Assembly (NCBI GenBank): GCA_020736575.1
Contig: JAGPYM010000024.1
Coordinates: 372,001-436,000, forward strand
Source of the DNA: Thelonectria olida
Taxonomy: Eukaryota > Ascomycota > Sordariomycetes > Hypocreales > Nectriaceae
Length of the DNA: 64,000 nucleotides
Direction: 5' to 3'
Part shown: positions 2,701 to 43,278 of the stretch, one piece after another
Numbering within the stretch: position 1 is the first letter of the stretch
Layout: each line of letters opens with the position of its first letter
The notes under the pieces: generated by a model
What the model saw: only the letters and a program-made list of their open reading frames with translations
Databases searched by the model: none
Told to the model about the DNA's origin: nothing
Made by a program: the position numbers and the translations under genes

Positions 2701-2738
2701 TGTTATCCGCCAGGCAAAGCGACAGGAGACAGAGAATG

Positions 2739-3989
2739 CTAGGAGCCATGGGTGCCCCGTCCCGGAAAGAACACCTCAACGGAATCGGCGTTGTCGAGCA
2801 CCATCATCCATGGTCTATTCTCTTCGTCGCATAGCCAGGCATGCACCAGCTGGAGCACGTTGCGCTTCGGATCATCTCGTCCGGGAAGTTGGAGTTTATC
2901 GGCGATGTGTCGGTATGCCTCCTCGAAGCGGGGCTTGGAGCTCGCATGCACCTAGAAAACCCAGGTATCTGGTGACGCCTGTCGGACTTCGTGCGCGTAA
3001 TGAATCGCGACCTGTGATTTCCTTGGTTTGTCAGCAACGTCTTTGGATCATGGGGCACGCAGCATACCCGATGCCGCCGAGCCCGACGAGCGCAGCGCGG
3101 CTGCCCGGTCGCGCGGTTTGCTCTCGCAGCCAGAGTAAAATGTCCGTCCGCTCAACGAACATGGGATCCGGCGGGAAAGGGACGGTGGAGAAGGGCCGGA
3201 TAGATCGTGGCGGGGCATGGCTGGCAAAATTGAACTGTTCAACAAGGTTGCCGCCGAAGCTGTGACCAATAAAAATCAACGGTCTGCCGGTAGCCTGCTG
3301 AGGTAGGCGGTTATTCAACAATGCCTGACTGAAGCTAGAAACGTGAGGTCGGACGTACCTTCTCGCGCTTGTGCCTGAGACTGACTAACAATTTGTCCGA
3401 AATGTTAGAGAGCCTTTGTTGGGGGGCGTTCATGAACCATTTCGAGTCGTAGTTGAAGGTCATAACCCGACAAGATAATCGTGTGGAGCAATTCCCTCAA
3501 CCAGTTGAAATGCTTAGCCGGATACCCGGTGCGGCCCGGAGGGTTGTTCTTCGGTTGCCAAACCCAAGCATAATCCGGGTTCGCGGCAAGCCCATGCACA
3601 GCCACGATGCTGAGATAATTGTTAGGAATTTCAAAGCCATCCGAGGGTAAAGACGTACTCAATAGTTGCATTGCTGTCGTCATACAAAATCTGTATTGGA
3701 TATTCAGCGGGTGGTGGGACGCTCTTGTCGCGCGACGGGCCTCGTCGCCATGGAGAGAGTGGCAGAGGAAAAGCCAAGTACCGACTCCGGTCTCCGTCCC
3801 CCGACGTGACGTCTCCGTTCTCCGACGGGGCACTATCTTCGTCTCCTGAAGATCTGACTTTGCCGTCCGGTATATTCTCGCTGCCAGGTCCCGGTTGTGG
3901 TCTAGGACCGCGCAGGGGAAAGAGTTCGGAAATCCATCTCGACCAAGTAGGCACGCTGATGGATGGATGCAATGAGAAGGCCGCAGCAA
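2739..3989 (-). pseudogene. NLR relic: alpha/beta-hydrolase + NB-ARC, broken
   Basis: Reading 3989 down to 2739, pieces in different frames make a fungal NLR. First comes a DUF676/lipase-like domain: ILYDDSNATI is joined by a likely intron (GTACGT...CAG near 3640-3610) to IVAVHGLAANPDYAWVW, then RVMTFNYDS, and after a second intron (about 3360-3300) IFIGHSFGG. The NB-ARC start follows: RAALVGLGGIG joined by a third ~46-base intron (about 3054-3009) to KSQVAIHYAHEV, giving a complete P-loop, then FEEAYRHIADKLQL and a Walker B-like WMMVLDNADS. Two lesions are visible: a 1-base frameshift near 3470-3485 between NWLRELL and RVMTF, and an in-frame TAG near 2955 where the family has Trp. The rest of NB-ARC and any TPR or WD repeats are missing. 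Intact relatives act in non-self recognition and programmed cell death. I regard it as a dead, truncated gene. Confidence 0.75.
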
Positions 3990-4240
3990 ATCAAGAAAGC
4001 ATTCCGAGCTGCCCCGTGAGGCCCGATGAAAATCCCGGCGATAATCCTAGGGAGCGTAAAAGAAGACATTGCGGTAGTCGCTCTCCTGCCACAGAGCTCT
4101 CCAAAGAGGTGTTTCGCCGTGGTCCGGAACCAAGCAACAGTAACGATTTTCTTCTCTGCATCTATGAACTTTCTCTCTTTCACATGCTAAATCTTGGAAT
4201 CGATGACACCGCTGTCGACCCTTAGATCGTCCAATAGAGC

Positions 4241-6464
4241 CTAAGCACGCTATCGCCACTTAATAAACCCTGTAGCAGATACTATCATAACACTGGGGCA
4301 AATTCCTTCGCGGAGCCTTTCGACAATTGATGGGATAGGCTGGAAGACGTTCACGTTATTGCACGATGCTTATGTTTGCAGGACCGACGATTGGCCGCTG
4401 CTGGCTGCGGAAGTCAAGAGCAAGCTCTACGAGACGACCGTGGATAGGACCGGAGCCAGCCTTGATAAATGATGAGCCATGCAGATGTGATATCCCAATC
4501 GTCGCCCTATTATGCAGCTCTGTGTTGGCTCAAATTCCGCCCGCTTTGCAAAGAGGAGCTAAACGGGCTAAATGCTGGGATGGGGTGGTGGGGCGCAGAA
4601 AGATGATGACAAGCCGACGGAAAGGAGGCTTTGCATCCTCAGACTCCGGGACATCGGCTGCCGGATGTCGGCACCTACGGGGGACAAACATCTGATGAGG
4701 CCAGACCACCTCTACGACAATGTATGGTTGCATATCCCTAGATTGCCGTAGCCACTAATGATGTCTCCCTTCAGTTCACAGCTGCTCGACCTCGCTTAGT
4801 CTCAATAACGTCGGTTTTCTTCCCCTTCTATCCGTCAGATAAATTACCTGTCAATCCCCTACGCTTCCTCCGTCTCTCCCAAACTCATAGTCTCTACGTA
4901 CACATTTCAGCTCACAATTAACATTATAGCGAAGCATAGAATACATCCATACAGAATACCAATCACATATCCTCATTACTATAGAGAATTTAGGCGCTCA
5001 GACGCCAGAACCACTCGGTTTATATCTCTCGTCATATATTCCAGCTTGCCTTCCGTGAATCGTCTACCCCTAACCGATAGTTGCCGCAGGTCCCAAGCTC
5101 TATCGCCAGCTATAGGTAATGTGCATCCCATTCGAAGCGCAAACTTTCTTCTAAAGTAAATATTCTACTGGGTAGAGTTCTGCGGGTAGATGCTCTAACG
5201 GAACACCTTACCGACGGCCCCCTCTCTAGGTAGTGGCGGTCGCCACGATATTCTCCTTGCCAATGGGGACACTAGCGCCTAAGCTCTGCGTGATCACCAG
5301 TACTTCGGATGCGAGGTAGACGGCGAGAGAAGTGATTTATTTCCACGCTATGGAAACAGGACAATATTTGCACTGTTTGTAGCTCTGGCGATGACGCTAT
5401 GGAGCGCGGATCCCTACATGACTATATATTCGTTATTAATACGTATAATGGCTATGTGCACAACGGAACTTAAGACCGACGTGGAAACTTATGGCTCCCC
5501 ATAGCTGGCCGCTAGGAGGCGGAAATCGGCATAAGTAGTGCTCAACCGCCCAAGCGGATCTTGCCGTTGTCTCGAGCAGCACTTCTCTGGTTCTGATTGG
5601 ATCTGCCGATACGACTGGCCCCAAGAGTTAATTTAGCCCCCACCAAGAAGTGAGCCGCATTATGCACTCTGGGAAGCTAATTAAACCTTGGTCCTAAACA
5701 AAACATGCAGAAAATTATGATTTGTCTCTTAAGTTTGTGCAAGCCTAACCTAATACGAGTGATGTTACGAATATTCTATCATTTGCCTTCGCATATCAAC
5801 GGAACTAACCCTCTGCAATAAATAGTCACCTCTTTCGTCATGATGACTCCTAAAGTTGCGTGTATGCACTGTTTTTTTATGACGTGTGCCGCATAGATAT
5901 TACATTAGCCTAGCTTTGGTCGAGAATGAGCTGGAGGTTCCTTTACCACAATTTGAAGCTGTCATAATGACTGAGGCGAAAAGCCTGAAAATTCTATAGA
6001 TAGCAAGCCTCTGTATGCACAGGCAGTGATGGACGTTAGTTAAGAAACATAACCATGCTCCAACTTAGAAACTTTCTCGCCCCACCTACAAGAAGTTCAG
6101 ACTTGCAGCGAAACGTATTATGGCCTACTATGCATAAACTTTGCTCCGCCGATATGTTCTTGATTGTAGAACTTCAGCTTTCTGGTGGCTTAGACAAGAA
6201 AGCCTAGAGCAGGTCTAGCCTAGATTTGACGACGAAATGACGGAAACCATTTTCTTGGAAGGCCAGGGAGCATCATAAAGTGTTATACTAGAAGAAAGTA
6301 AATTTATATTTTTAGAGCGCCCGGTTGCTTATAAAAATGGCCTCCTCGACCGCTCTCCCTTGGAAGGTTTCCTTTTTTAAACAGCGATCATTAATTCTTC
6401 AGTTGCTGAAACTGAGCAATATTGACCGAGGCCGCATTTTGTTACCCCGAAATATTGTTGAAAA
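4241..6464. other. Long gene-free stretch
   Basis: About 2.2 kb with only short, domain-free open frames. Composition swings between AT-rich (4900-5000, 5700-5900) and mixed. I see no transposase remnant, RNA gene or tandem repeat. It ends in the promoter of the cysteine-rich gene. Confidence 0.5.
6329..6338 (+). promoter_or_regulatory. TATA box of the cysteine-rich secreted gene
   Basis: TTATAAAAAT lies about 130 bases before the ATG at 6465 and is the best core promoter motif in the region. Confidence 0.5.
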
Positions 6465-6815
6465 ATGCATTTTCAGAACTTCTTTGTCGTCCTTGCAGCT
6501 ATAACTGGGGCATTTGCTACTTGCCCGGGATCGCCAAGCTCAACCACAACCTGCGTCAAACAATGCTCTTGCCGTTGCCTAACCCAGACGTTGACCTTAA
6601 ACACCAACCAGCAGGGTTGTCCGTCGTCAGCCGGGAATCAGCCGATTTCTTGTCCTCCAGCCTCGGGACCCACATTCGTCGGCAACGTGGATTGTGACGC
6701 ACCCTGTCCTGAATGTCCCGCGTGCCCGAATACACCCAGCTGCCCCCCAAATGCTCCTCCTGCGTGTCAAAACGCCATCGACAGATGCCATCCCCAGTGT
6801 AGTTGTACTACATAA
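6465..6815 (+). CDS. Small secreted cysteine-rich protein
   Basis: Intronless gene for 116 residues. It starts with a clear signal peptide (hydrophobic FFVVLAAITGAFA, cleavage near residue 18-19) and the mature part carries 16 cysteines, several in CxC and PxCPxC clusters, with a Pro-rich linker (CPECPACPNTPSCPPNAPPAC). The even cysteine count suggests up to eight disulphides in the extracellular space. It fits the general profile of fungal effector-like or antifungal-like small secreted proteins, but I do not recognise a named family and the cysteine spacing is not that of a hydrophobin (no CC pairs). A TATA box lies about 130 bases upstream. It sits alone between a gene-free stretch and the decaying Ulp1-like gene. 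Confidence 0.75.
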   Translation: MHFQNFFVVLAAITGAFATCPGSPSSTTTCVKQCSCRCLTQTLTLNTNQQGCPSSAGNQPISCPPASGPTFVGNVDCDAPCPECPACPNTPSCPPNAPPACQNAIDRCHPQCSCTT

Positions 6816-7208
6816 CCGTGGTAGGTACTCCAGGATTTATACTCAGATCCCATTCTGAATATTACTAACATATTCAAGTCTTTCTTTTCAAACCATATCC
6901 TTCCCGGCCATGGGGAGTAACCGAAAATGAGGGGGGAAAAGGAGGAATGCAGGGAAGATTTGTTGCAGGTGGATATTGGGTGGAATTGGACAGGTTCGAG
7001 GCCTTGCAACCTGTGCAACTCTCCATTACTGTGTCAGGGGCCAAAGCCGCCTAACCGGCTTGGCCAAGGAGATCTAAATCGCAGTTCAACCTCGCGTTAA
7101 CAGTTATCAGTCATTATTCTAGCTATCAATTCAGTTTTTCAAGTCCTCCTAGCCAAGGACGTACCAATCAGTTATTTCTTCTATTTTGCAAATGCCCTGA
7201 GCCTTTAG

Positions 7209-8939
7209 TCATTTCTTCATTATAACCCCCTGATAGATGGAGCCTTCCCTCTCGTTGATCTGGAGAAGGCTGAAGTGGTTTTGGCGCTGGAAGAGCGGGT
7301 AAAAGCACACCAAGTGGCTCTGTGCTTCTGCCTGGCGGTGCCATTCTGTCATCTGCTTCGCAGCCCTCTCGAACGGGCGTGGTATTGCAGTATGGGCTCG
7401 AGTTTGCCGATGAATGGGAACTGAAAAGCCAACTCGAACGAAAGACAATTTGTCAGACAGGTGTAGGTAAGAGAGAATGATCTCCTCATTAAGCCAAGTT
7501 GTTGCGCTAAGCCTTCGGAGTGAGTGTTTTTGGAACCTAAAATCGATACCATTGACGAGGAGTATGTTGCCGGTGGTTGATTCCTGTACTTTCTCATAGA
7601 AGGCGTCAAGCTCTTCACATCTAGTAGATGAGCCTGGTTCCGAAATTAATAAGCCTTCGCTCTCCAAATCGTCGTGAAATTTGTCTTGGTTCGTCCTGCC
7701 TGTCTCTAGGAGCAGTGACATTTGTTCCGTGAGGAGTTTCAAGACAGTCATCTTCTCTGGGCTGCCTAGTAGCTTTCTAATCAGTGTGTTTAACACAGAC
7801 TCTGGTGACTTCGCGAGTCGCCTGCTTCAGGATTAACCAGCCATCTCGTCCCCCCAAAAGTTACTCACCACGCATTCTTGAGTAGGATGCCAGAACCGAG
7901 TTCCTCCATAAGCGAGACCACTTCCGCCCACGGGCTAAGTGCGTGCTGAGATTTTTGCGGCGTCGTTCCCATAATTCCTTCTTGGTCTTGTCAGCTTCGG
8001 GCTTGGGACCAAGAATTCTTCCCGACACTGCTTTTGCGGCTTTGTGGCCCGTCGCGCCCACTGCACCTTCCATCAGCTGTACTTGAGACGCGTGCCATCT
8101 GGCAAAGGCAGTGGCGGTCAGGGCATAGCGAATTGATCCCTTGGATCGCTCGGTGTGTCCTGCTTCCACAAGGGAAACCCACTCCGAGCCGTCAGACCAC
8201 TTCGTACCGTCCTTGCATGGCTCGTTGCCGAGCGAGGCGAAGAGAGCCTTGTACGTTTCTGGCGAGTTTTCCGACGAACTGAACTGCAGTACCTGCTGGC
8301 AACTCTCGTTGACAAACTCCTCGATTGATTGCTCAAGGAGATCCAAACCTGGCCCACAATCATCCGTTTGTCTAGGGCTGGTACCATCGAGGCACCTGGA
8401 TCAGGCGTTCTCTTCGGATGCATGGGCTCGATGCTGGGGATGGCGCTTTGCGAATTGCCCACGTGAGTTGTATCTGCCACGCTGTCCGCAAACTCTTCCT
8501 GGCTCGACCCCGAAACTGGATTGATCTCCTGGATTGCCGAATCTGCGGCTCTCCCGTGCAGCTCATCACAGTTACTGCGGAGGCTGCGAGCGAAACTCTG
8601 AATCCGATGTTGCTCCTGAGCAGACCGCGTGCTCAAGGCCAACCTGAGACCTTCGCTGAGTTGCTCGCTATCACCTGCAATCTGGAGAATAATGTCGATT
8701 ATGTTGTTAAGGCTGAGGGGAAGTCGAATGCGGTTCACTAGAGACTGGATTGCTGGTTCAGTCTCCACTGAACCGTCTGCATTGAGTGGCATGGGATTAT
8801 CGTCAAGACACTCAGGGGTGAGAGGCTCGACGGAAGGACGTTCAGGTGTAGCACCACTCCTTTCCAGCTGATTGGAGGCCATATGTGTTGTCTGTCGAGA
8901 AGGTTCCGAGACTTTAGTCAGCCGACTGCTGGGAGACAT
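7209..8939 (-). pseudogene. Ulp1-like cysteine protease gene, probably broken
   Basis: Starts at 8939 (MSPSSRLTK) and runs through three open segments: 8939 to about 8390, about 8395 to 7861, and about 7800 to 7209. The second junction is an intron starting GTGAGT at about 7869, which removes the stop after SRMR. The first junction needs a short intron or a 1-base shift near 8390. The N-terminal half is low-complexity and unrecognised. The last segment resembles the C48/Ulp1 SUMO-protease fold: TTWLNEEIILSYL matches the WLND/E motif and NHFSLLQIN matches the strand carrying the catalytic His. The frame is lost at a run of five G near 7228; the other frame continues plausibly (YNEEMTKGSG) for a short distance. 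I cannot find the catalytic Cys segment, so the protease is probably inactive. Confidence 0.55.
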
Positions 8940-9053
8940 GATGGAAACCTGAGGTTTCGTGGACCAAATTCTTCATATAGGGCGGCAAGTAGAGCAAAAA
9001 GGGGATGAGAAGGGAAGATGAATGAGTCCTCCTCAACTCGGGGGAGGACGCGA

Positions 9054-9060
9054 TATTTAT
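9054..9060 (-). promoter_or_regulatory. TATA-like box of the Ulp1-like gene
   Basis: ATAAATA on the minus strand, about 115 bases upstream of the start codon at 8939. Confidence 0.35.
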
Positions 9061-9318
9061 GTTTGAGCGCCTCATCTCATCGTCCCTTTAGCCCTCATCG
9101 CGGCCTGCATTTGGAAGGCAGTGAGTGGTTTGATAGAGCGGCACAGCAAACCAGTGCCATTTGTCTTGCCTCCTGACATCCCCAACCGACTTCCCAGGAA
9201 GTCGTTGATGCAGGCAGGGCAAAACCGTGATCACATCCTTGGCCTAGCCTGGTCCTGGCCATGGATCCCCGGCTGCCTCCCAGGACCAAGACGACCAACT
9301 CGAGATATCTGCGACCCC

Positions 9319-9525
9319 TCACCCGTACGCGGACATAGTTGTGATGAGGCTTCCCGCTCCAACCCGGTTTCCGGGTAGTGCGTTACCTAGAGATGCCATG
9401 TCGGCGGAGCCACTACTGTCTTGGGCCCTCTGAGGCTCGACTTGACCAACCTCGCTGGACTGACTGATAGTGCTGGGGGTGGTTGATGTAAGGCAGGACT
9501 GCTGACCACTACCAGTGAGCTTCAT
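9319..9525 (-). pseudogene. Fragment of a dispersed gene family (paralogue at 36.4 kb)
   Basis: The minus-strand frame reads GSGQQSCLTSTTPSTISQS then SEVGQVEPQRAQDSS. It matches GSQQSCPTSTASSATSQS and GEVGQLEPQRAQDGG of the two-exon gene at 36,444-37,353. Only this part of exon 1 is kept: the upstream residues and the whole chromodomain-like second exon are missing here. It is a relic of a copy of that family, in the opposite orientation. The rest of 8940-10,366 holds nothing I can support. Confidence 0.65.
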
Positions 9526-10366
9526 TTTTTCTTATAAATAGAGTAATTCGTTACCTCAAGGTATTAGACAACATATAATAGTGTCTTTTCAATACCTCGC
9601 AAACTCGATTTATCACTCATCCTTCGTTCCATTCTCTAAGTTCAATTTACGAGGCAATAACATATTTGTAATTCCATACGGCGAATCGGATTATTAGATT
9701 CCATGGAGTCAGATAGTGCGAAGTGCTTTCGTACGTTTATTGGGCATAGTGAAGCCAATCACAAGATGAGTACGCCTTCGGGCACAGCATCACAACGTAC
9801 ATTGTGGGCAGGCCAATCACGGTTCTCTTGGTCAGTTGCAAATCAGTTTCCAAGATTACCGGGGCAAACTGGCCGCAGTTCATGTAAACCAGCCTCGAGG
9901 AACAAACAGGGTAAGCGCAGGAACCAATAGGAAGTAGGAACAACGACCAATAAGAAGAGAGGTCAAGGGAAGGCGCGTCTATCCCACATTTGTTATAATT
10001 GGCCATTCTCTCTGCGATTGCGCATGAGCCACTAGACCTCGACATCACCAATAGCATTTTGTCATCGCTAACTCGAGCTAATTAGTGGTGGGTTGCATCC
10101 AATGCTTACAGGTCGATCACCGAGAGAATAGCTGGGCACGGATTCAACTTTTATGGTTGCCTCCTTCGGCTTGTTCATTGGCTTGTTGAGACCAGGTGAT
10201 CAGTGGTCAAGGCAAATGCGAAGGTATCTTGAGTCTGATAAGGAAAGAGCATTATATTGGGGTACGGCGTCTGAAGCGATGGATGATGATTGGACAAGCA
10301 ATCTGACCCGTCTGAATTCTGGTAGGACTAGCTTGCTCCCATTCTGCGCTACTGCTAGGTTACTTC
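9526..10366. other. Intergenic spacer
   Basis: No gene recognised. Short open frames have no domain features. Confidence 0.4.
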
Positions 10367-13165
10367 CTAGAAACTAATTGTTGTCATGCTGTCATCACTC
10401 TCAATGAACCCTTGCCAATCCGAAGGCAGCGGACACTGGCGGACTTCTCGCGTGTTACCCACAGTGCCTGACGCGGCTTGATGATTAGTGTACCAGTAAC
10501 CCTTTCCATGAGACGGGGTGGGGCAGGTAGACCGAGGTAATGAAGAGCTGCTTGCCATGGAAGGAGCCAGTCGAACCTCTCTCGATGGCTCAGAGGACCT
10601 ACCCGGGGGCCAGCGAAGCGCTTGTGAACTGATCGGAGATTGGTTGAATGGGGACGTTTCTGTGTTGCTTAGGCGGGAACTTCCTGTCGATGTGACGTGC
10701 AACCATTCCGGGGGCGTCGCAATGGTGGATCGAGGGGTCAAGGTCGTAACAGACTGACATGCGTTCGGGAAAACCTGAACCATGCCGTCATTACCCCATG
10801 TTCTTCTGGAATGAGGAGGTGGTGATGGGACGGTCGAGCGTGGGCCTGAAGAACTGCCCCTGGAGACTGGGTGAGTCTCATAGATCCGTAGTGGTTTTTC
10901 TCTTGTCTCAGAGTTATAGAGTATGTCTTTCGCGCGATGCTTGCGGCGTCGGTTGGTATGCCGGGGGGTTCCTTGTGGGGCATTGGATCTGGATGTTTGG
11001 TGCGATTGAACCATGTGCGGCGGCGTTGGCACCGTGGATCGAGGTAATTCAGAACAGCTACTTAAGAGATCACTCTTTTCGATGTCGTTCGATGGCGACT
11101 CTTGGAAAGAGAGTGTTGGGATACTGTCGCTCACTGAAATCGTTGTTCCGCTCAATTGATCAAGATTCTTGAGACTGCGAGGAATAGAAGCAGATAAATC
11201 TGGAGGCATTTGATCGCCACTCTCGCAGCTCTGGTCCCAAGATTCCAGCTCTTCATACTCCTGAATGAGATTTGCCACAGTGGAGGAATCATCATCTTCC
11301 ATAATGACATCTTCATCTGCAGGGCAGCTAGATAGAAGTTGGGAAGAGATTGGAGAATCAACGTCCATGTCCATTTGAGTTGAATCCATATGTTCTATAC
11401 TGGTATCCGGTATGTCGGTGTTCCACGTGACGGGGGCGCTTATGTGGGCATGGTCCATTTCAATATCTTGACCTGTTATCCTCTCAATTGCCCCAGGTGA
11501 TTGTACTGTTGGGCCCCATATTGCCGTCTCGGGCACTGCACAACCTTCATGGGCATGCTCGTTAATACTACAAGTGCGGGACGAGTCGAAATCGAATGTG
11601 CAAGGATTGAGAAATGTTTGTATCAGATCCCTTAAGACGAACGCCGTGTCAACTCCAGATCTATGCGAGTCATTGGCAAAAAGACAGGGAAGAAAAGCGA
11701 CCTGCTGGACTGTGGGAAATAGCCGCGCGTAAGGTCTGCCCCAGCGGCGTTCCGGTCGGCTGTAAAATGCCAACTCATCAATATCCTGAGCTGCGAATTC
11801 GCCTTCGAAATTGCAGATGAAACACTCAGATTCGGGGATCCATAGTGGAGATGAGGCTCCCTCGTCAATCAACGAGTTGTGAAAACCGAAAAGACTTGCC
11901 CGCCTCTGGAAGAGAATTCGAGATGAGGCTGCGTTATTGAATTTCGAAAAAGGCACTCCCTGTCCAGGTTCGAGCTTTGGTCGTGATTCACTAAGGTATG
12001 GGAATTGTCGAAATGCTGCCAAGAATAGTTGATTATACGAGAGATCAAAACATGGTGCGCCGCTGACTGCCCGAAATTCGCCTTCTTGCACTTCGACCCA
12101 AGACTCTGTAGGAGTCCAGCAATCCCTTAATACCGATTGTAGTGTATGATTGGCTTTAACCATATCCCTAATCTCGCTAGGGATCAAGTGAGACCATATG
12201 ACCTGGGCGGCGATCCCTAGGAATAACATGTTCGTTTGAAATGATCGAAGGCTTGGGATCATAAACGACGCATCCAAAACAGCCTTTTCAATTTCATGCC
12301 GCTTTTGAGGATCTATTACCCCTCGAAAAACTGTTTTATTTGCGAAGGCATGACGAATCCATTCGTGATCCGTTTGGCTGACCGCTGGGACACGTCCTTC
12401 CAGCTGCTTTACTGTTTCAAGATCGACGCACCGCTTGATTTCACTTCTACCGGCTGTGAATCTCGACCAAGCGGTATGTATGGGGTTGATACATTTGGGA
12501 GTTAATATGCGCCAGGCAAAATACCGTCGGTAGTTTCCCAGGTATAGTTGATCTATCAACCCTGGAAAATCTGTGAGTCGGTTCAACTCTGCAGCGATAT
12601 CGGGGCGTCTGTTAATCGCTTTAAAGGCCTGTTTCTTATGGGGACTCAGCCTCATATACCACTCGTAAAAGAATTCGCTGTTTCCATCATAACTGCGGAG
12701 CTTGGAATATATGTGCCCATTCGTATTTGGCTCTTCATGATGATACTGCTCGGTCTGTTTCTGTACAACCCAGCTTGTTCGGAGTATCGAGAGGTCAGCG
12801 CAGAAAAGTCTGACGGTCCACCATGACTTGCGATCGATTTGCTTGGCTGCGGTAATGCGATGCCGGCCTTGGGTAAATCCAATGAGTTGGTTGTTGAGGT
12901 TTGGAAAAAGTTTATTTGCATTCTTCTGTCGAAGGGCTGGAAGTCCCCCAAACTGGTCAAGAACCGAAGTAACATCCGAATTGTCAATGTAACCGTCGAC
13001 CCAGTGATTTTCGTTTTGGTGGTCAATGGTAGTTTTACTGAATAGAGCTTGGAGGCGATCAGTATGGGCTTCGCTGTATAGTCGTTCTCCCATATCCGTA
13101 ATAAACTCCAAGTTTGAGATGGGGACCTGAACGATCCCCAAAAGAGCAATCGCTTCATTTGCCAT
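10367..13165 (-). CDS. DUF3723-type protein
   Basis: Uninterrupted 932-residue frame starting at the ATG at 13,165. The N-terminal two thirds match the fungal DUF3723 architecture as I know it: a GRHRI motif at residues 100-104 (FTQGRHRITAAK), a WWTVRLFCADLS stretch at 115-126, and the later FFYEWYMRLS and FPGLIDQLYLGNYRRYFAWRIL blocks. Residues ~560-932 are a low-complexity Ser/Pro/Thr tail rich in short repeats such as PRSTV.TPP (several copies), probably disordered. The biochemical role of the family is unknown. DUF3723 genes are one of the recurring accessory classes of Starship transposons, and FRE, PLP and an NLR relic lie within 13 kb on either side. The ORF shows no lesions, so it is probably expressed or was recently. 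Confidence 0.8.
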   Translation of the reverse strand: MANEAIALLGIVQVPISNLEFITDMGERLYSEAHTDRLQALFSKTTIDHQNENHWVDGYIDNSDVTSVLDQFGGLPALRQKNANKLFPNLNNQLIGFTQGRHRITAAKQIDRKSWWTVRLFCADLSILRTSWVVQKQTEQYHHEEPNTNGHIYSKLRSYDGNSEFFYEWYMRLSPHKKQAFKAINRRPDIAAELNRLTDFPGLIDQLYLGNYRRYFAWRILTPKCINPIHTAWSRFTAGRSEIKRCVDLETVKQLEGRVPAVSQTDHEWIRHAFANKTVFRGVIDPQKRHEIEKAVLDASFMIPSLRSFQTNMLFLGIAAQVIWSHLIPSEIRDMVKANHTLQSVLRDCWTPTESWVEVQEGEFRAVSGAPCFDLSYNQLFLAAFRQFPYLSESRPKLEPGQGVPFSKFNNAASSRILFQRRASLFGFHNSLIDEGASSPLWIPESECFICNFEGEFAAQDIDELAFYSRPERRWGRPYARLFPTVQQVAFLPCLFANDSHRSGVDTAFVLRDLIQTFLNPCTFDFDSSRTCSINEHAHEGCAVPETAIWGPTVQSPGAIERITGQDIEMDHAHISAPVTWNTDIPDTSIEHMDSTQMDMDVDSPISSQLLSSCPADEDVIMEDDDSSTVANLIQEYEELESWDQSCESGDQMPPDLSASIPRSLKNLDQLSGTTISVSDSIPTLSFQESPSNDIEKSDLLSSCSELPRSTVPTPPHMVQSHQTSRSNAPQGTPRHTNRRRKHRAKDILYNSETREKPLRIYETHPVSRGSSSGPRSTVPSPPPHSRRTWGNDGMVQVFPNACQSVTTLTPRSTIATPPEWLHVTSTGSSRLSNTETSPFNQSPISSQALRWPPGRSSEPSREVRLAPSMASSSSLPRSTCPTPSHGKGYWYTNHQAASGTVGNTREVRQCPLPSDWQGFIESDDSMTTISF

Positions 13166-15549: not shown

Positions 15550-15739
15550 AATTTGGGTTGGTGAATTGTCATGGCTTACCCAAGGGGCAAGGGGAGTGGC
15601 ACCTGTATAAGAAGTAGGAACAGAGATTGCTAAATAGGAATGGAAGTGATAAATTTAGCAACTACTACGTACAGACTAGGTAACCAGACCCATTTGTGCG
15701 TCCGTCTTGTTCACCAATGCCGAGTGATTCAAGCGATAT

Positions 15740-16226
15740 CTACATGAACTCCCCCAAATCAAGCGTCTCAACAAATCTGTCAACCGAACTAGCCGCCTCG
15801 CTGTACTCAGACTCAGTATAGCTAAGATGGTCCCCATGAGACCTCTCAAACATGTCAAGACAGTCGCCTAGTCTCTCCATTACCATTTTTGTTCGCTCAG
15901 ACATAACGGTTTCCTGCTTCTTCAGCTCATTTTGCAGCTCGGTCATTTGCTGACTCAATTTAATCTGGTTCTCAACAACCCATTTGAGCATTGCATGCAA
16001 GACGTCCAGTCCAGAGCCTCCATCTTGACTAGTCGCTTTTAGTCCAACACCTCTTATAATTCAGCTAGACTTACCCTTGAACTTTGCCCTCGCCCGAAAC
16101 TTGAGTATCCTGTTTTGGCTCTTGTTCAAATATGAGAGGGTACGTGTCATCTGTAGCAGCAATAGGCTGCTCCTCAAGCTCCATTAAGGTATTGTCGAGC
16201 CAGTCTTGAGTGAACGTGTTGTCCAT
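15740..16226 (-). CDS. Short coiled-coil protein, two exons (146 aa)
   Basis: Exon 1 is 16,226-16,075 and exon 2 is 16,028-15,740. The 46-base intron (GTAAGT...GACTAG) keeps frame, giving 146 residues. Exon 1 encodes an acidic head (MDNTFTQDWLDNTLMELEE). Exon 2 begins GGSGLDVLHAMLKWVVENQ, continues in a coiled coil (QQMTELQNELKKQETVMSE) and ends in an acidic tail (ETLDLGEFM). The family is unknown. A TATAAAA lies 111-117 bases upstream of the ATG. It is in tandem with the other 146-residue coiled-coil gene 190 bases downstream. Confidence 0.65.
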
Positions 16227-16336
16227 GGTGAGAGTGGTGGGAAGATAGAAGCTATTAGATATTTTGGACTGGAGGGAAAGTAGAAAAGTGGAAGTTATGA
16301 GTAGGAGTGCATGGCCGGGATGGGTTTAAAGAGGAG

Positions 16337-16343
16337 TTTTATA
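16337..16343 (-). promoter_or_regulatory. TATA box of the two-exon coiled-coil gene
   Basis: TATAAAA on the minus strand, just over 110 bases upstream of the ATG at 16,226. Confidence 0.5.
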
Positions 16344-16494
16344 CCTGACCATGCAATACTGTTCGCAAAAAATTAGATCAAGACATCTGTTGTCGGATCA
16401 CATAAAACAGAAAACTAGTCGAATCAAATACTTAACCGCTACCAGTCCCCTCTTTCATAACCAACAGTTTTTTCCAAGTTCAGTCATTTCAATC

Positions 16495-17531
16495 ATGGCT
16501 TACATTCGATTTCATCTCGCATTCTGGCTGGCGGTGGGCGTCTCTGCTCTGAATCAAGCCCCGGATATTTGCGCCTGGGAACCCTCGCCTGTGACCGCGG
16601 GATCCGTTCGGACGGCCGGGATCCTTAATCCGTTCGCAGCACGCTGTGAAGCAGTGCTTGATTTCGATAACCCTAATTACCTTCCAATTACGTGGTCGTT
16701 TGATGCAGTAGATTGTGAGGATGTTCAAATCGCACAGTTCACGCTACCTCTTGCGGTCCCCAACGGGGGTGCCTACATCACATGGTTCGTTCTTCATGCC
16801 GTCATACGTTAGCCTCGGGGTTAATACCAACTAGGGATTGCGAGGGTGATATCACGACTTGCAATCATATCGTTATCACCAATGGAAACGGCAATCCTGA
16901 CTCCGTACCCCTCCAGCAGGTGGGAGTCGTCGGTTGCGTACCGCAGTCGATGGCGGCAACGGCCACAACGCTGACCACGCGCACACTACCATTGATCCGG
17001 GGACAATCTTCCAACCTCCCTACTGAGTGGACGTCTGCCATAACAAGCATTTCAAGTCTTACCCCGCCCTCTTCTCCGACGTCTACCACACCCTTTATTC
17101 CGAGGTATCCCACCCAGTCGTCATCGAGCGCTTCAGGGGTTACTTCTACACCCTCCACTCCGACGTCGACCACCCGATCATCGAGCGCTTCAGGGATTGC
17201 TTCTACACCCTCCACTCCGACGTCGACCACCCGATCATCGAGCGCTTCAGGGGTTACTTCTACACCCTCCACTCCGAGGTCGACCACCCGATCATCGAGC
17301 GCTTCCACCGCCAGTCAGGTTATAGAAACGCCCAGTACTAGCTTGGTTTCTGAACTCGCCTTTTCTAACAGCAAGTCGACCTCATTGGCAGGCAAAGGCA
17401 CTCCGACAGCTGGCCATACAGGTCCAAGAAGCACGACTGTGAACCAGGGTATGTTATGGATTACCCTAACGACCACCATCTCAACATGCGTAGCGCCAAC
17501 ATGCGAAACGCAAACGGCAAAGAGGCAGTAA
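16495..17531 (+). CDS. Secreted Ser/Thr-rich repeat protein
   Basis: Exons 16,495-16,784 and 16,835-17,531, with a 50-base intron (GTTCGT...ACTAG) restoring a Trp codon. A signal peptide (FHLAFWLAVGVSA) is followed by a ~120-residue cysteine-containing domain with paired DCE motifs (AVDCEDVQIAQF; WDCEGDITTC). A long Ser/Thr/Pro stalk contains three copies of a 19-residue unit (SSSASGVTSTPSTPTSTT) encoded by a 57-base tandem repeat at about 17,120-17,300. It ends with a hydrophobic stretch (MLWITLTTTISTCVA) close to the C-terminus, which may be a GPI-signal-like tail, although the last residues are polar. This is the layout of O-glycosylated fungal cell-wall or surface proteins. The globular domain is not recognised. 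Confidence 0.7.
17120..17300 (+). repeat. 57-base in-frame tandem repeat (3 copies)
   Basis: Three near-identical 57-base units lie inside the Ser/Thr-rich stalk of the secreted protein. As 57 is a multiple of 3, the antisense frame also stays open, which explains a spurious minus-strand frame here. Confidence 0.85.
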
Positions 17532-17727
17532 TTATCAGCTCACATGCCCCAGTAAGATTTTCTGTGTGAGTGGGTATACGAAAGGCTTGTTGGTTGCTCT
17601 ACCTCGGACAAACTGACCCCTGCTGGACGGAGGTCAGTCAGTATTTTATTACTTCACAAATAAATACAGATCGTTTGCCTGAAAATTTGAATATTCCCAA
17701 TTTCGCCTTGTTCACTGTAACTTGACA

Positions 17728-18276
17728 ATGTCTTCTCAAAACAAATGGCAACCCACTCAGTGGCCTTCCGCACAGCATCGTCCGCTGGCTCCGAAACCCA
17801 GCGGGTCTACAACTGGCGAGCAGGGCTGGCCGTTGCAGCAACAAACTTCACGACCTATATTCCCAAGTCCCGCAGGTTCTATGGGAGTTTTGCCTCGATC
17901 ACGAACAAGTCAAAGTCTCCCAGAGCCTACTCCTTCCAAAGAGGTGTCACGACCATCCACTCCAAGGCCTCTCGCACAGGCTCATTCCTTGGGGACTCCT
18001 CGGTCAGAGCTTCTTTCTTCCCGTCCGGGCTCCTCCATTTCACAGTCCATGGACTCCATACCACTTCCCAGCTCCATCGTGCCCCCAATGCTCGAATCCG
18101 ACCAAAAGACAACTAAGGAGCTGGCAGATCGAGCCTGGGCGGCCGTGACAAGAGCAGCCATTCGCATAAAGACATTAGAGGATAACAACGACGAGATGGC
18201 TAAAACGGTCGAAGACTTGAATAATCGCATCGCGCAGATGGAGAAAGCCATGGGCCTTTACTTTGGTATGAATTAA
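17728..18276 (+). CDS. Ser/Pro-rich protein with C-terminal coiled coil
   Basis: Intronless. The likely start is the ATG at 17,728 (MSSQNKWQPTQW), giving 182 residues. The first ~120 residues are disordered and rich in Ser, Pro and Gln. The last 60 form a coiled coil (AAIRIKTLEDNNDEMAKTVE then DLNNRIAQMEKAMGLYFG). No domain is recognised. It is the third short coiled-coil gene within 3 kb, and others occur at 29.8 and 31.0 kb, which suggests a set of interacting small adaptors. The spacer 18,277-18,644 after it is empty. Confidence 0.65.
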   Translation: MSSQNKWQPTQWPSAQHRPLAPKPSGSTTGEQGWPLQQQTSRPIFPSPAGSMGVLPRSRTSQSLPEPTPSKEVSRPSTPRPLAQAHSLGTPRSELLSSRPGSSISQSMDSIPLPSSIVPPMLESDQKTTKELADRAWAAVTRAAIRIKTLEDNNDEMAKTVEDLNNRIAQMEKAMGLYFGMN

Positions 18277-18644
18277 CTCATTCACACTATGCATCCTCTA
18301 TACTTGGTATTTTTTCGGCCTGTGTGTATATAGTATCATCAAACAAGTAGCTCAATGTGAGACGCAGCATGGCGATACCAACTCAGCTCGCGAAATAAAC
18401 GGTGGCCGTTAGAGTTATGCTAACTATTTATTACGAACACTACGTATTTGCTGATCTTCAGCCATAACTTTCTAGCCGTCGAAGAGTAGGTCTTACGCGG
18501 ATGTAGTCAATACCCTTCTCGCGAACAACGTCAGTGTTCGCCAACGAGCAGATGGACTTTCGGCCATCGAGCTTGCATGGGTGAATTATTGGATCAACAA
18601 CAGAGAGCTAACCAAAGTTCGCGCGCACGAACCACAAGCTAAAG

Positions 18645-19149
18645 GGGGCTAAATCTGTTTTCCGAGTGTCCCAGCACACTCACAGGGGCTAAATCTGTTT
18701 TCTGAGTGTCTCAGCACACTCACAGGGGCTAAATCTGTTTTCCGAGTGTCCCAGCACACTCACAGGGGCTAAATCTGTTTTCCGAGTGTCTCAGCACACT
18801 CACAGGGGCTAAATCTGTTTTCCGAGTGTCCCAGCACACTCACAGGGGCTAAATCTGTTTTCTGAGTGTCCCAGCACACTTACAGGGGCTAAATCTGTTT
18901 TCCGAGTGTCCCAGCACACTTACAGGGGCTAAATCTGTTTTCTGAGTGTCTCAGCACACTCACAGGGGCTAAATCTGTTTTCCGAGTGTCCCAGCACACT
19001 CACAGGGGCTAAATCTGTTTTCTGAGTGTCCCAGCACACTTACAGGGGCTAAATCTGTTTTCCGAGTGTCCCAGCACACTTACAGGGGTTAAATCTGTTT
19101 TCTGAGTGTCCCAGCACACTTACAGGGGCTAAATCTGTTTTCTGAGTGT
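18645..19149 (+). repeat. 40-base minisatellite, 12 full copies plus a partial one
   Basis: Units begin every 40 bases from 18,645 to 19,125 with GGGGCTAAATCTGTTTTC. Each full unit contains GAGTGT, a 6-base spacer and ACACTC, a perfect 6-bp hairpin arm. Copies differ at a few positions (CCGAG/CTGAG, CCC/CTC, CTCACA/CTTACA), and two higher-order types alternate. It lies in front of the PLP gene. It is not a CRISPR array because there are no unique spacers. Confidence 0.95.
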
Positions 19150-19491
19150 GGGCTGGGAGACTGACAGAGCTCTTTATTGGTTGGCCGGCTTTGTTCTGTC
19201 AGGCCACACGAGAATCAGTTTCTATTAAAGGCAGCCCGTTTCTAATGACCCATCAATTGACCCTGAATGAAGCTTGCCTTCTATTGGTCCTCACTGAAGC
19301 ATGCTCTTCGATTGGTCCTGCTCCCTTGAGTTCCTCCTTTAATTCTGAGACCAATCAAGCAACTACATGTCAAGAGCCTGGTCATCCCAAGAGCGCGACT
19401 TCACATGGCGAGCGCAACGAGATCCAACTCGCCCTAACAGTGTCTGAAAGTTCAACCTCACCCACTACTCAAACAAAAAACGAAAACAAAA
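19150..19491 (+). promoter_or_regulatory. CCAAT-rich upstream region of the PLP gene
   Basis: Between the minisatellite and the PLP start codon there are at least three ATTGG motifs in the sense of the gene (about 19,171, 19,281 and 19,309) and one CCAAT near 19,348. The motif is the binding site of the fungal HapB/C/E complex. Function here is inferred. Confidence 0.4.
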
Positions 19492-21880
19492 ATGGCTTTG
19501 CCATGGCTGCATATTCAAAGAAACATCATCAACAATCAACCGTATCCAGTATTATATGAGAACACGAGTCTATTTTATGCCTTCCAGAAGACTCGACGCT
19601 TATTATTGGAAGTAGGTGAATCATCACCAATTGATACTTTAGGTTCGAGCAAGCTCCCTGGTGTTTGGCTAAAAAGATTGGATGACTTGACTACTATTGC
19701 TAAATACCGTCCTCACTACAATGGGGAAGAGCGGTGGAGCCCAGCGCCGGAAGGCTTCACCTCACATCAACTTGCACATCACCTAGGGCAAGACCATGAC
19801 CAAATTATGAGTCAAATATGTGGCAAGATCCTGGTGCCCTTCAGCATTGCGATTATTCTGTTCGCAGATAGTCTTGGTGGACTACAGCCGACGGTGGAAC
19901 TTCTTGCTCGCCTGCTGAAGCCCGACCCTGTCGCCCATTTTCAATCTTGTCCACGTCTGCTAGTTGTTCTTCGAGGAACGCCATGCGATGAAAGAGTGCT
20001 CGAACGTCTTATTACTGCTGAGATCTCATGTGTCTTTCGTAAATGCCACCCAGAAAGCCCACTCAGTGAGAGCGACGCTCTTCAGATGTGGTCGAGTCGA
20101 GTGGATCGTCTGCAGGTCATCAGCGACGAACCCTCAGAGATTGCCATTGCTATGAAGGAAATATCTCTCTCATGGAAAAAGCAGGGTTCCGACTACTCGG
20201 CAGTCAATTTTCACAAATTGATGCAGAGAGCCATCAATTGGTTTTGCCAAGGCCAAGGAGAAGCCTTTAACATTCTCGATGGTCTATGCATTCGCGACCC
20301 AGTTACGAAGCATGCCAAGGCTTATCTAGAGGAGTTCCTGAACAGAAAAGCACGCGATGGGTTTGATTACCTTGCAATTGCCGTTTCTTGCTTAGCCTAC
20401 CATATATACACTCTAAACGTCAGCGGTTTGTAGCCTGGCCTGTTAGAAGCGAGCACAATCACTAACAGGTTAGGATTTCACCCCAAGCTAGCATTCCAAA
20501 GCCTGAGTCGGGAGCTCTTTACGGGAACGCATTGGACGCCTCAAGAATATGAAAAATTAAGGCATCGCTTCTCTCAGATTACCTACCAGAAAAGCTCCCA
20601 GCAAATCGTCACATTTCATCTCAATTTTATTAGAAGCTTACCTATCGCCATGCCTGGATGTAGCATTTGTTTGCTAGGAGTTCCTATCCATGCTCTAGCA
20701 TGTCCTCATCGACTTTGCAACAATTGTGCGAGGATTTGGATGCGAGGTGCTCCTTTGAAATGCCCATTATGCTATGGGAGGGACGCAAAGACTCTTAACA
20801 TCAAACCTCTCACCGCGGTCCCCCGAGTTCTCCAACTCTCAGGTTCCGTTTCATCTTCACTCAAGTTTCTCCATGAGATCCGAAACCTGCTCTTCGGTCA
20901 TCTGGAAGATTACGTAGATTTGGTGATAGGCTCAGAGACTGGTTCGTCGTTCTTTCAGGTCCTAAAGTCATACAATAACAAGCTGACCAATGCTAGTTGC
21001 TGAGGTAGTTACAGGCTGCTTTTGTTATCATTTGTCCGTTCAAGAATGCGCAAGAGAGATTAAAAGGAGAGCCAAGAAACAATGTGTCTTGCGGTCCTCG
21101 CCAGTCATGATTCAAGGCCGTGTTTGTATTGCTATACATAACGGTCATCATTTCCGATGCAATTATCATCGAGAATCCTCAGTTAACAATCGCTTCAAGT
21201 TCTCACGCTTGTTTGAGGGTCTTTGTTTCAGTCATAGGCTAATTGAGGATTCAGGGCAGGTGGATGATGAATGCAAAGCTATTTGGGGCTCTAAAGCCCA
21301 ACTAAGGGTCCAAAAAGATGCGGAAACCGCTAAAGCCGCGGCTGGAAAGCTTTTTGCTTCACTATTCTATCTCGAGCTATGCCGATTTCCCGACTTCCGT
21401 TCGGTACCCGTCATGTGTGACGTGGATGTCAAATGCCGCTTAAACCCAGGCCAACATCTCAACGCTGTTGTTCACGAGATCCAACGGCAAAGGTTGAAAA
21501 TTCATTACAAGGGGTCCGGAACCTGGTTTCGAGACGACTTTTGCTCGACTAACTGGGAATTGATCAAAAGTCAGTCCCTTGATGGGTTCTCCAGACGATT
21601 AAGAATTCAAGTTCTATCACCACAAACTATCTTGCAGGTAGAAATTGACAGTCCCGTCCAAAAAAGATATCAAGAGAGAATCAGCATGGCCCCGACGCTA
21701 ATGGAGTTAATGGATGACCTGGCTTTGAGAAGATATCAAGTTGACCAGTTTAAGGTTCAGGGAGAGAGAATTGAAACTGATCTGAGTTGTATGAAAGATT
21801 CAGAGGTGCAATCACAACGGCGATCAAGTTTTAGGAATGAGATTGATCAACTCGAATGTTTGCTAAAGGAATGGAAATAA
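19492..21880 (+). CDS. Patatin-like (PLP) family protein with RING finger and dead active site
   Basis: Three exons, 19,492-20,425, 20,474-20,941 and 20,997-21,880, with introns of 48 and 55 bases that both keep frame; 761 residues. The order matches fungal PLP proteins: an N-terminal regulatory part (FADSLGGLQPTVELLARLL, CPRLLVVLRGTP), then a C3HC4 RING-like finger (C374, C377, C388, H390, C393, C396, C408, C411), then the patatin region and the conserved C-terminal extension (FPDFRSVPVMCDVDVKCRL, LEWK end). The patatin catalytic motifs are lost: the GGGxRG oxyanion loop reads SGSVSSS (434-440), the GTSSG nucleophile motif reads GSETV (464-468), and no DGG motif is seen. The frame itself is undamaged, so the loss of catalysis may be old and tolerated. 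Active PLPs hydrolyse acyl lipids and are frequent Starship cargo and incompatibility genes. Confidence 0.8.
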
Positions 21881-21980
21881 CAACATAGTCTTGAGAACCA
21901 GCTCTGCGTCCAGCGTCTATTTACACTAATATTGACAAAACACTTCAATCAAAAACGGTTGACCCCTTGTGAGCGAGTGA

Positions 21981-22643
21981 TCATCTTCCGACGATGGCCC
22001 TCTGCCCCATGGTCAGGGGGGCCTTTCTCTTCCTCGTGTAGTGTGCAATGTCGCGTGGGCGGGTAAATTCGTGGCTAGCAGCCCGCATTTTCTGATCGCG
22101 GCTAATAGCATTGCCATTGCGGGCCTGCGATCCAGCCTTGCCGTCACCGGTCAAGGAATCAGTGTGAGACGACTTTGGAAGATGAAATACTGGCTCCGAG
22201 ATGCTGGGGTTGGGAAGAATCGGCGGCATGTCAGGAAACGGAGTTCCCTGGCGTGGCTCAGGGGACTGCCTTTCAGAAGTGGAAGCTGCCAGGGCCAGAA
22301 GCCGCTCATCGGACTGACTGCTCTCAGAGCTTGCCATTCTTGGTGGGGTGACTGAAGACCCGGAGCAGGTTGACTGCTCACTCAGACGGTCGGCGACTGT
22401 ATCAAAGTGATCAGGCCCCACAGCCCTGATGCCAGCATTTTCTAGGAATGCGTGGAGCTCCGGCCATTCCCTCTCGTTATGGGAGGCGTAGGCGCGAGTG
22501 TTCCCAACGTCCATACCGCAATCAGGTTGGACAATAATAGCAACTCGAGGGTGCAATAAATTGAAAAGGGTATTTCCTTTTTTGAACAGACCGACAGTTC
22601 GGATGTTGAATGTGCGACTGGGTGTATTCGGAATGCGAGACAT
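21981..22643 (-). CDS. MADS-box-like protein
   Basis: Intronless 220-residue frame from the ATG at 22,643. Residues 1-55 resemble a MADS (SRF-type) DNA-binding domain: IRTVGLFKKGNTLFNLL parallels the usual xRxxGLFKKAxELSxLC helix and HPRVAIIVQPDCG parallels the following strand, with a later RAYAS where MADS boxes have YxFxS. The basic N-terminal residues that touch the DNA backbone are poorly kept (SRIPNTPSRTFN). The rest is Ser/Pro-rich, ending in a basic stretch (HYTRKRKAPLTMGQRAIVGR) that may be a nuclear signal. It is convergent with the PLP gene (100-base gap). A divergent MADS transcription factor is the best guess. Confidence 0.5.
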   Translation of the reverse strand: MSRIPNTPSRTFNIRTVGLFKKGNTLFNLLHPRVAIIVQPDCGMDVGNTRAYASHNEREWPELHAFLENAGIRAVGPDHFDTVADRLSEQSTCSGSSVTPPRMASSESSQSDERLLALAASTSERQSPEPRQGTPFPDMPPILPNPSISEPVFHLPKSSHTDSLTGDGKAGSQARNGNAISRDQKMRAASHEFTRPRDIAHYTRKRKAPLTMGQRAIVGR

Positions 22644-22739
22644 GATGCTTGCCAGAAAGGGGTAAAGACAAAAATCTGTGTTTGTTCTTGGTCTTCTTTG
22701 TGTACAAGATCCTGTCCTGATGCTTCTAGACTCTATTTA

Positions 22740-23062
22740 TCTTGAAACAAAAAACCAACTTATATCTTATAAAGTAGAGTTGATCGTAACCGCATTCAGA
22801 TGATTGGGTAGACTCGGAATGTCCTGATTGGCCCAGACGTTTGTTCCTAAACTTATGCTAAACTTAGAACTGCTATCAGCCTACTGTGATCTAGTATTTG
22901 ATTTGAGTATTTAGCACTGAAAACCAATCATAATCGCTGCTCCGTTTGGCCAATTAAATGCCGAGCACAACCGCGGTTGTGTTGGCCCAAATATAGTAGA
23001 CGCAGACAATATGCTGCTCCAATGAGGATCTTCTGGGCGCTCACACCGCGGGGTCAGGAAGA
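22740..23062. promoter_or_regulatory. Divergent promoter between the MADS-like and FRE genes
   Basis: About 320 bases between two head-to-head starts. It contains ATTGG near 22,805 and 22,827 and CCAAT near 22,923 and 22,950, so it is CCAAT-rich on both strands. The TTTAT/ATAAATA near 22,733 may be the minus-strand TATA element. Confidence 0.35.
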
Positions 23063-25102
23063 ATGAGCCGATTGTGTCATTTGGGCCTGAAAACCAAAGA
23101 CAACTGTCGGAAGTCGTCGGTGTTAACCTGTGTCACGCTCTTTGCTCAGGACAATAACGCATCGAACCAGTATCAAGCCCGGGCACAAACACCAGAAATG
23201 CTGTCATACTGGAGCCGTCGCGTTGTATTTTTGTACCTTTTGCGACCCTGGAGACTTCCCAGGTTGATCATCGACAGTCTGTCCCGCCCAGCGTACATAT
23301 GGGATCACAAGAGGATAACAGCGGCCCAATTTACCCTTCTTTTGGCGTGGTTCGGGCTCAATGTGGCGTTTCTTACTGTTCGCTGGGAATTCCCACGAGA
23401 GAAAAGAGCTGCGCTCGCGGCCGCTATCAACCTCACTCCCGTGATCCTGGGTGGAAGAACCTGCTTGGTTGCTGATGCCATAGGCATATCGCTTCAGTCG
23501 TATTATTTACTTCATCATTGGCTAGCAAGACTCTCATTTGTCGAAATGGGGCTACACGCCATCATCCACACCAAGCAGCAGAAGACCTGGACAGCCTCAT
23601 CTGCGATGGGCCTGACGGTATCCCCCCACAGTCCTCATATGTATTTGAACTGACAGTATCTAGGCGATGATTTTGTGTGTTATTATTACGGCCTCGTCTA
23701 CCAGATTTACTAGGAACCGCTCTATTGCCTTCGCATGGTCTCACAGGGCACTAGCAACTGCGATGCTTTGTGCACTCTTAGCGCATTTATGGCTTATGCG
23801 ATTCCGCGATGGTTTAGTGGCTAAGTTGTTGATCTCTGGAGTCGTTTTCATTTGGCCTTTGTCGCTCTTGCGTCGTTGGAGACGACGCCGGGAAGCTCGT
23901 GCCACCATTCACAAGCTGTGGGTTGGAGGGTTTAACAACGAAAATTCCCAGTACACCAGAGCAGCTTTACTGAAGATTCCGCTGGCAAGGGATATCCTCG
24001 TATACCCCGGCGCGTACTTCTACGTGATGTTCGACCGCCAACCATTCTGGAGGCGATATCATGGGCCACCGATGATGGTGTATGACTGGAAGACACCACC
24101 AGAGCCATTGGCGTGGAATGAGAGCAAGCTATCGACGTCTGAGCTGACGTTTTTAGTTGAAGATAGGCCCTCCGTGTCCTCCACACTCTCCCAGCTGGAG
24201 GCTTCCGTTACTCTCGATGGACCGTACGGCCAAAATCCGAACCTCGAAAGTTTCGACAGTGTGATTCTAATTGCCCAAGGTATTGGGATTGCTGGAATTA
24301 TGCCGTTAGCGTTCGCAATAGCGGAACGAAGAAACTACGACCGCATCAAAAAGGAAGAAATGAGGTCTGAAGATTCAACCCCAGAGCTCAATGCACGGCT
24401 GCATCTTGACCGGACAAGGCGGCTCACGCTTATCTGGACGATGGAAGATAACAACCAGCTAGAATGGGCTGTTGAGCAGATCGATCGGCTCTTTGACCTA
24501 GATCCAAAATCTGTGAGACGCTGTCTACCAGATTCACAGCTTCTGCTAATGATCCTCAGGGACTTCTTCATGCCTGGATCTACGAGCCTGACAAGCCCGA
24601 CGACAGCAAAATCCAAGATCCTAGAACCCCTCTAAAGGCGGCCCAGGCATTTAAAGACCATTGTCGGCTCGTACATGTGCCCAAAGCGAGGCGTAACGCA
24701 GCGCTGGAACAACAGACAGATTCGCTGCTAATGACGTCGCCAGGCGACGTTGCGATTGCCGGTAAGTCAGAATCAAATCCAAGTGATATATTAGCTCAAT
24801 TTCCTATAGTTTGTGGTACGGCCGACTTCAGACAAACCGTTAGAGATATTACTTGGGTGTACCCACGGCAGGCTCGCTTCTTCGAACTGGAGCACCAGCC
24901 TCACTCCACCTCAGCCAACCGCGAGAATAGTTCACCTACCCGCCCCCATAGTGAGGGTCTACGTTCCTTCGCATCCAGCTTAGAGGATGAAGTGAGACTT
25001 TCACGATTGCCCCGCAAGGAAGTGAGGCAACAACGGGTCCAGGTTCAGCATGTACACATTCATCAGGAGACAAGCCTTGCGGGATCAATTAGAATGTCAT
25101 GA
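23063..25102 (+). CDS. Ferric reductase-like transmembrane protein (FRE)
   Basis: Four exons, 23,063-23,617, 23,664-24,512, 24,560-24,761 and 24,810-25,102, with introns of 46-48 bases keeping frame; 632 residues. The membrane part has the bis-haem His pairs spaced 13-14 residues apart in two helices (His152/His165 in YYLLHHWLARLSFVEMGLHA; His212/His226 in WSHRALATAMLCALLAH), preceded by the family motif INLTPVILGGRT. The cytosolic part has an FAD-binding barrel (VYPGAYFYVMF, 298-308), GPYG at 371-374, the NAD(P)H-binding GIGIAG at 391-396 and the closing VCGTADFRQTVRD near 537. The usual HPF flavin motif reads HGPP, a deviation. It would pass electrons from NAD(P)H to extracellular Fe3+ for iron uptake. 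The start is uncertain, as an upstream exon is possible. FRE genes are typical Starship cargo. Confidence 0.82.
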
Positions 25103-25253
25103 AATGCACAAAGCAAGTTTGCTGTGCAGCTCATTTTCTATAGTCAATACAGAGAGGCTCGAGCCGGCTCGAGATTTACAAAAAATAAAACATTCCTCTT
25201 TAGCCACCGCAGCGCAGGGGGGCCACTCTAGCAATGTGAAAGCACTCAAGGTC

Positions 25254-43258: not shown

Positions 43259-43278
43259 ATGGTTTGCCTAGAATGAAT

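Follow-up and report, generated by a model that had tools for sequence, protein, structure and literature searches.

Starships of the Pezizomycotina are described as elements in which a DUF3435 captain is the first gene and which carry direct repeats, inverted repeats, and DUF3723 and ferric reductase (FRE) cargo (PMC12134995, PMC12153272, PMC12506042). According to the same accounts, they range from ~15 to 700 kb, terminal inverted repeats are frequent without being universal, and the NLR, DUF3723, PLP and FRE cargo classes are common and not required. Derelict, RIP-mutated copies have been described for the Starships Pegasus and Limos (PMC11623301, PMC12257634), and Gaeumannomyces Starships carry an alpha-galactosidase (CBM35 and GH27; PMC12134995); the defining features, derelict copies and alpha-galactosidase cargo are covered by a literature that also includes PMC12289983.

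The window analysed here, i.e. the whole 64,000 bp stretch (1..64000, +), corresponds to C83:372001–436000 (C83 coordinate = window coordinate + 372000) and lies entirely inside one element. A first-pass annotation had examined a 22-kb region, less than one-fifth of the 121.5-kb element, and proposed that the window covered either the inside of a Starship-like element or a decayed portion of one, with its ends lying outside or lost. The interior placement held, as both ends, their repeats and the captain were found; the suggestion of decay did not, the captain being undecayed in appearance. In its inward-reading DUF3435 captain in first position, its direct and inverted repeats, its length and its DUF3723 and FRE cargo, the element resembles Starships as published; it departs from the typical set in that the NLR is a remnant recognised by eye and the PLP is unconfirmed. 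We put the probability that the window is part of one complete Starship, transposed with its cargo by its own tyrosine recombinase, at about 0.95 from the sequence.

Ends, target site and captain

The junctions were located by comparison within a single genome (52.5 Mb, 165 contigs). C83:363814–364188 aligns with C77:554310–554683 (88.8 % identity) and C83:485690–486081 with C77:554677–555068 (89.5 % identity), and the two C77 matches share 7 bases. This mapping places the element at C83:364182–485696 (121,515 bp), or −7818 to 113696 in window numbering, with both ends, the captain and the alpha-galactoside genes outside the window. The direct repeat GAGTCCC is present twice in C83 (364182–364188 and 485690–485696) and once in C77, and terminal inverted repeats just inside it match at 25 of 29 positions. 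An earlier guess of a right end near window position 30.5 kb, derived from a match to C114, was dropped after the C77 comparison.

The interrupted target in C83 is a BCS1-type AAA-ATPase gene. Its paralog on C77 is BCS1-like (BCS1_N, 69.9 bits; AAA, 74.2 bits) and has an open frame that is continuous across the insertion point, and the same 7-base overlap on C132, seen in search coordinates only, suggests a second uninterrupted copy. The empty site by which Starships are recognised is therefore represented here by the C77 paralog (and, in coordinates, by C132) rather than by an allelic site, as these are paralogous gene copies and not alleles of the C83 locus from another isolate. The left flank of the element is a repeat mosaic. 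Just past the right end, the same BCS1 gene copy holds a 3.1-kb insertion (C83:486081–489181) with an 8-bp direct repeat, CCTCCAGC, and ends CAGCGCTG, which we take to be hAT-like.

The first-pass annotation was correct that no captain is visible in the window and had proposed searching the flanks for a DUF3435 gene and target-site duplications, treating the lack of such a gene within several hundred kilobases as evidence against a Starship. A genome-wide profile search returned 35 DUF3435 matches, merged by hand into 17 loci, among them an above-cut-off match at C83:365849–366205 (+), 5.8 kb left of the window. The corresponding gene occupies the interval 7.5–4.4 kb left of the window, is the first gene of the element and reads inward from a start codon 306 bp in from the left end. 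Its spliced frame begins at C83:364494, closes with a stop codon whose last base is C83:367642 and contains five short GT-AG introns. Fitting used a distant Fusarium homologue (51 % identity) with frameshifts forbidden; as a prediction from sequence, the resulting splice model shows the existence of an open spliced captain frame, not protein production. A sixth intron proposed by the fit is unnecessary because the frame is open at that point, and an earlier reading of the frame as interrupted was dropped, the spliced alignment placing a short intron at that spot.

The longest frame of the captain scores 30.8 bits against DUF3435 (cut-off 25.8), while other DUF3435 genes of the genome score up to 201 bits. 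Hypothetical proteins of Fusarium sp. Ph1 (51 % identity to the longest frame) and Dactylonectria estremocensis (52 %) were the sole two hits at E≤0.001 among 7997 scored candidates. The captain and these homologues have an alignable zinc-finger-like C-terminal part, and some captain residues resemble, by eye, what we take to be the recombinase catalytic arginines and tyrosine; structure prediction for the homologue gave a model of too low confidence for use (mean pLDDT 34.9). When the genome was searched for homologues of the Fusarium protein, it yielded this captain, a C4 copy broken by 47 stops over three pieces, a single weak C77 match and nothing else.

A 27-base pattern representing the element's ends, allowing up to three mismatches, matched the genome 15 times, and its reversed control not at all. 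Sorted by the sequence beyond the pattern, six matches look like captain-side ends (C83, C114, C4, C80:263k, C115:152.9k and C84) and eight like far-side ends (C83, C114, C79, C115:154.6k, C144, C94, C25 and C131, with C94 the least sure), and one is atypical (C80:551k). GAGTCC stands before four of the six captain-side ends, and the other two have a different sequence there. Ends could be paired in C83 (121.5 kb), in C114:17860–31047 (13.2 kb) and, by orientation, between C79:620082 to the contig end (C79:620082–713306) and C4:1–5512. We infer that the last pair represents a single RIP-ruined sister element split between two contigs, with ~14 kb of the expected distance missing between them; no C79 match to the far end of the element was listed, with 39 of 122 candidates scored. 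The C114 interval was considered as a working captain-less form, an idea that was dropped since RIP has mutated its captain-side end and the homology breaks off close to the captain start.

DUF3435 and DUF3723 genes also occur near each other elsewhere in the genome: four of nine DUF3723 loci, including that of the window, have a DUF3435 locus no more than 100 kb away (probability by chance 0.0007, assuming uniform placement and the 17 hand-merged loci). Pieces of the window recur on C131, C77, C81 and C2 (the last over 45 bases only), and each of these contigs has a DUF3723 gene ~27 kb or less from the matching piece. At C131:18384–22407, ~1.2 kb from a far-side end of the family, lies a different DUF3435 gene with a higher score. 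Separately, the DUF3435 matches at C98:285945–287210 and C81:515477–516742 have equal extent, near-equal score and one stop each, and are possibly copies of one element.

Two other accounts of the locus need to be weighed. DUF3435 sequence is common in this genome, with its 35 fragments in 17 hand-merged loci, and other transposons lie in and around the element, including the MULE frame at C83:470775–472073 and a stretch with 96–97 % copies on three contigs; an accessory compartment rich in transposons might thus have brought a solo DUF3435 gene and resident cargo-like genes together by chance, with no single element present. We regard this as very improbable, as it is contradicted by the mapping of two distant C83 junctions to adjacent bases of one C77 gene copy and by the shared 7-bp repeat and paired inverted repeats at those junctions. 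Alternatively, the BCS1 gene could have received a segment by insertion or rearrangement, with the DUF3435 gene as a passenger rather than as the mover, and the flanks are indeed otherwise damaged by the hAT-like insertion on one side and the repeat mosaic on the other. The recurrence of the same two end types (6 captain-side, 8 far-side and 1 atypical of 15) and captain-side homology that begins at the identical base on C4 and C114 make this account slightly less credible still.

The transposed Starship thus remains the preferred reading. Under it, the captain would recognise both ends of the element, excise the 121.5-kb unit and recombine it into a GAGTCC-containing target, here the BCS1-type AAA-ATPase gene, leaving GAGTCCC on each side, and the cargo (DUF3723, FRE, M16 peptidase, alpha-galactosidases, sugar transporter and others) would travel along. 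We infer an active captain and an element that may excise or move between strains.

Cargo genes and their origins

The first-pass annotation had reported four Starship accessory classes in the window, of which DUF3723 and FRE were borne out and the NLR and PLP proved weak. The DUF3723 gene (10367..13168, −) is one 933-aa open frame with a strong match to PF12520 (208.4 bits, cut-off 22). The ferric reductase-like gene (23000..25102, +), first placed at 23.1–25.1 kb, is supported by two domains in two frames at 23000–24635 (+): Ferric_reduct (PF01794) falls just below its cut-off (26.7 bits against 28), while NAD_binding_6 (PF08030) exceeds its own (24.9 against 22.2); the frame at 24497–25102 returned no Pfam match. 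At the position of the broken NLR (2739..4046, −), a remnant can be recognised by eye as hydrolase-like and nucleotide-binding-like pieces spread over three frames with stops, but none of the three stop-free minus-strand pieces scanned matched Pfam at E up to 10. The gene originally called a patatin-like protein (19438..21880, +) is better described as a RING-containing orphan (PF00097, 23.4 bits, cut-off 21): no patatin match was found in Pfam at E up to 10, nor any relative at E≤0.001 among 7998 scored candidates. Its patatin-like stretch is a likeness recognised by eye, and the nucleophile motif of patatins is missing from it.

The remaining contents of the window are varied. An ankyrin-repeat open frame (1143..2039, +; PF00023, 51.1 bits) precedes the NLR remnant, part of which (2743–3234) recurs in five places near full length (81–94 %) and in two over ~215 bases (79–82 %). 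Genes common to DUF3723-bearing contigs follow at 7212..9521 (−), with DNA matches on C131 (7231–9358, 95 %), on C77 (7237–8200, 77 %) and, over short stretches, on C81 and C2; domain scans assigned these genes to no family. Further frames encode DUF3716 and Sir2 domains (31521..33063, −; PF12511, 32.7 bits; PF02146, 45 bits), a C2H2 zinc finger (34605..35291, −; zf-H2C2_2, 108.2 bits) and DUF7025 and AAA ATPase domains (45884..47585, +; PF22942, 93.9 bits; PF00004, 35.5 bits). The minisatellites reported at first pass are present as 15 partly overlapping rows at a score of at least 80, and a 16-bp minisatellite of 20.5 copies occupies 30462–30789. Also observed, at 26107–29736, was an open frame of 1209 aa that contains a long PPG repeat and has no Pfam match. 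NCBIfam searches of seven proteins returned nothing useful.

An M16 peptidase of the insulysin/Ste23 type (49311..52975, −; PF16187, 317.4 bits) has a resident counterpart on the 3.07-Mb contig C89, of which it is a cargo copy; DNA identity is 82 %, and the aligned residues agree at 910 of 1091 positions. A 30-row tree, for which 28 rows were hand-chosen from the best 120 of 2745 hits, groups the cargo and resident copies with a single metagenome protein in a clade (support 100/99) adjoining Mariannaea, with the branching order inside the clade unsettled; the cargo branch measures 0.21 and the resident branch 0.017. By this clade and these branch lengths, the host is probably a member of the Nectriaceae close to Mariannaea, and the element probably took the M16 gene from the host lineage or a near relative, the gene evolving fast afterwards. 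Long-branch M16 paralogs are seen in the same tree in several Fusarium species and in Dactylonectria, and may be recurrent captures. A further segment (54200..55795) is 82–86 % identical, over longer pieces, to C1:1827146–1829377; with its paralog on that large contig, it is possibly another captured core gene.

To the right of the window, a Pfam scan of 20 frames over C83:438.6k–482.3k identified a protein kinase (153.8 bits), two frames of a GH27-like alpha-galactosidase (21.7 and 17.6 bits, each below the cut-off of 23), a Fungal_trans factor (37 bits), a GH36 melibiase (481.8 bits), a sugar transporter (158.1 bits), OrsD and OrsD-helicase proteins and the MULE transposase frame. The GH27-like gene, the regulator, the GH36 enzyme and the transporter all lie within 9.3 kb and, judged by their predicted domains, are a probable alpha-galactoside cluster. 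Gaeumannomyces Starships are likewise described with alpha-galactosidase cargo, but unlike those accounts the present element groups a GH36 enzyme and a GH27-like gene with a transcription factor and a sugar transporter. Elsewhere in the genome, GH36 is represented by two full matches (C2 and C99) and one fragment. The C99 gene (C99:38972–40036) has a 522-aa frame, equal in length to the GH36 of the element.

RIP-mutated relatives within the genome

A second copy of window block 15879..25120 (+) is found at C79:700603–709367 (−), where GC content is 21 % and no ORF of 100 aa is listed. Over 8039 aligned columns, C>T or G>A changes at sites where the window has C or G account for 2126 of the 2327 substitutions, against 55 reverse changes and 146 transversions. 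The C4 copy of the captain end shows the same bias (687 RIP-type changes, 26 reverse changes and 42 transversions in 2522 columns), with GC at 20–24 % through most of the part read. Outside RIP-type changes, C79 and C4 differ from C83 by 2.5 and 2.7 %, respectively, values consistent with both belonging to one element. Apart from that of C83, four captain-side ends could be compared beyond ~40 bases and carry mostly RIP-type changes; these are C4, C114 (100 of 109 substitutions over 334 columns), C115 (6 RIP-type against 2 other changes) and C84 (7 against 1 over 60 bases), whereas C80 diverges from the C83 end after ~38 bases. In C83 itself, the RIP product index is below the substrate index in 66 of 66 4-kb windows. 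That relatives ruined by RIP stand beside a RIP-free C83 copy suggests that the latter was probably not present when RIP struck them. Duplicates of 96–97 % identity standing elsewhere in the genome, known from search matches alone on three contigs, suggest that RIP is inactive now.

How the contrast arose is less certain than the identity of the element. It could be local, with a long shared history of all copies in this genome and RIP that was one-sided or that the window copy escaped, a view to which we give close to even odds. RIP can be uneven; moreover, arrival from outside cannot be shown where one genome was examined, and most of the other ends were compared over 60–100 bases only. Against it, RIP normally strikes both members of a duplicate, and the window copy is RIP-free in 66 of 66 4-kb windows, while C79 has a GC content of 21 % and C4 one of 20–24 % through most of the part read. 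What we consider the strongest open reading, tentative and somewhat short of even odds as a full scenario, is re-invasion after RIP: an earlier wave (C79 with C4, C114 and probably C115 and C84) would have been destroyed by RIP, and a close relative, ~2.5–2.7 % different outside RIP-type changes, would have arrived afterwards from another strain or species, either once RIP had ended or without a RIP-competent cross, and stayed intact to this day.

The C79, C4 and C114 copies recall the Pegasus and Limos derelicts, in that element copies are ruined by RIP and one is broken by contig ends. Ruined and clean copies of Pegasus and Limos are described from different species, whereas here both stand in one genome. 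The element thus adds to a known kind, the Starships, and what is instructive is how differently RIP has marked its copies within a single genome: a Starship with both boundaries defined and a captain that can be read lies beside relatives killed by RIP, in a fungus of the Nectriaceae probably near Mariannaea. Its cargo offers a candidate alpha-galactoside metabolic cluster on a mobile element and, in the M16 peptidase, a core gene of the host lineage copied and since diverged, which gives a direct look at gene capture. RIP can moreover serve as a clock, making it testable from sequence whether the clean copy was resident when its relatives were destroyed.
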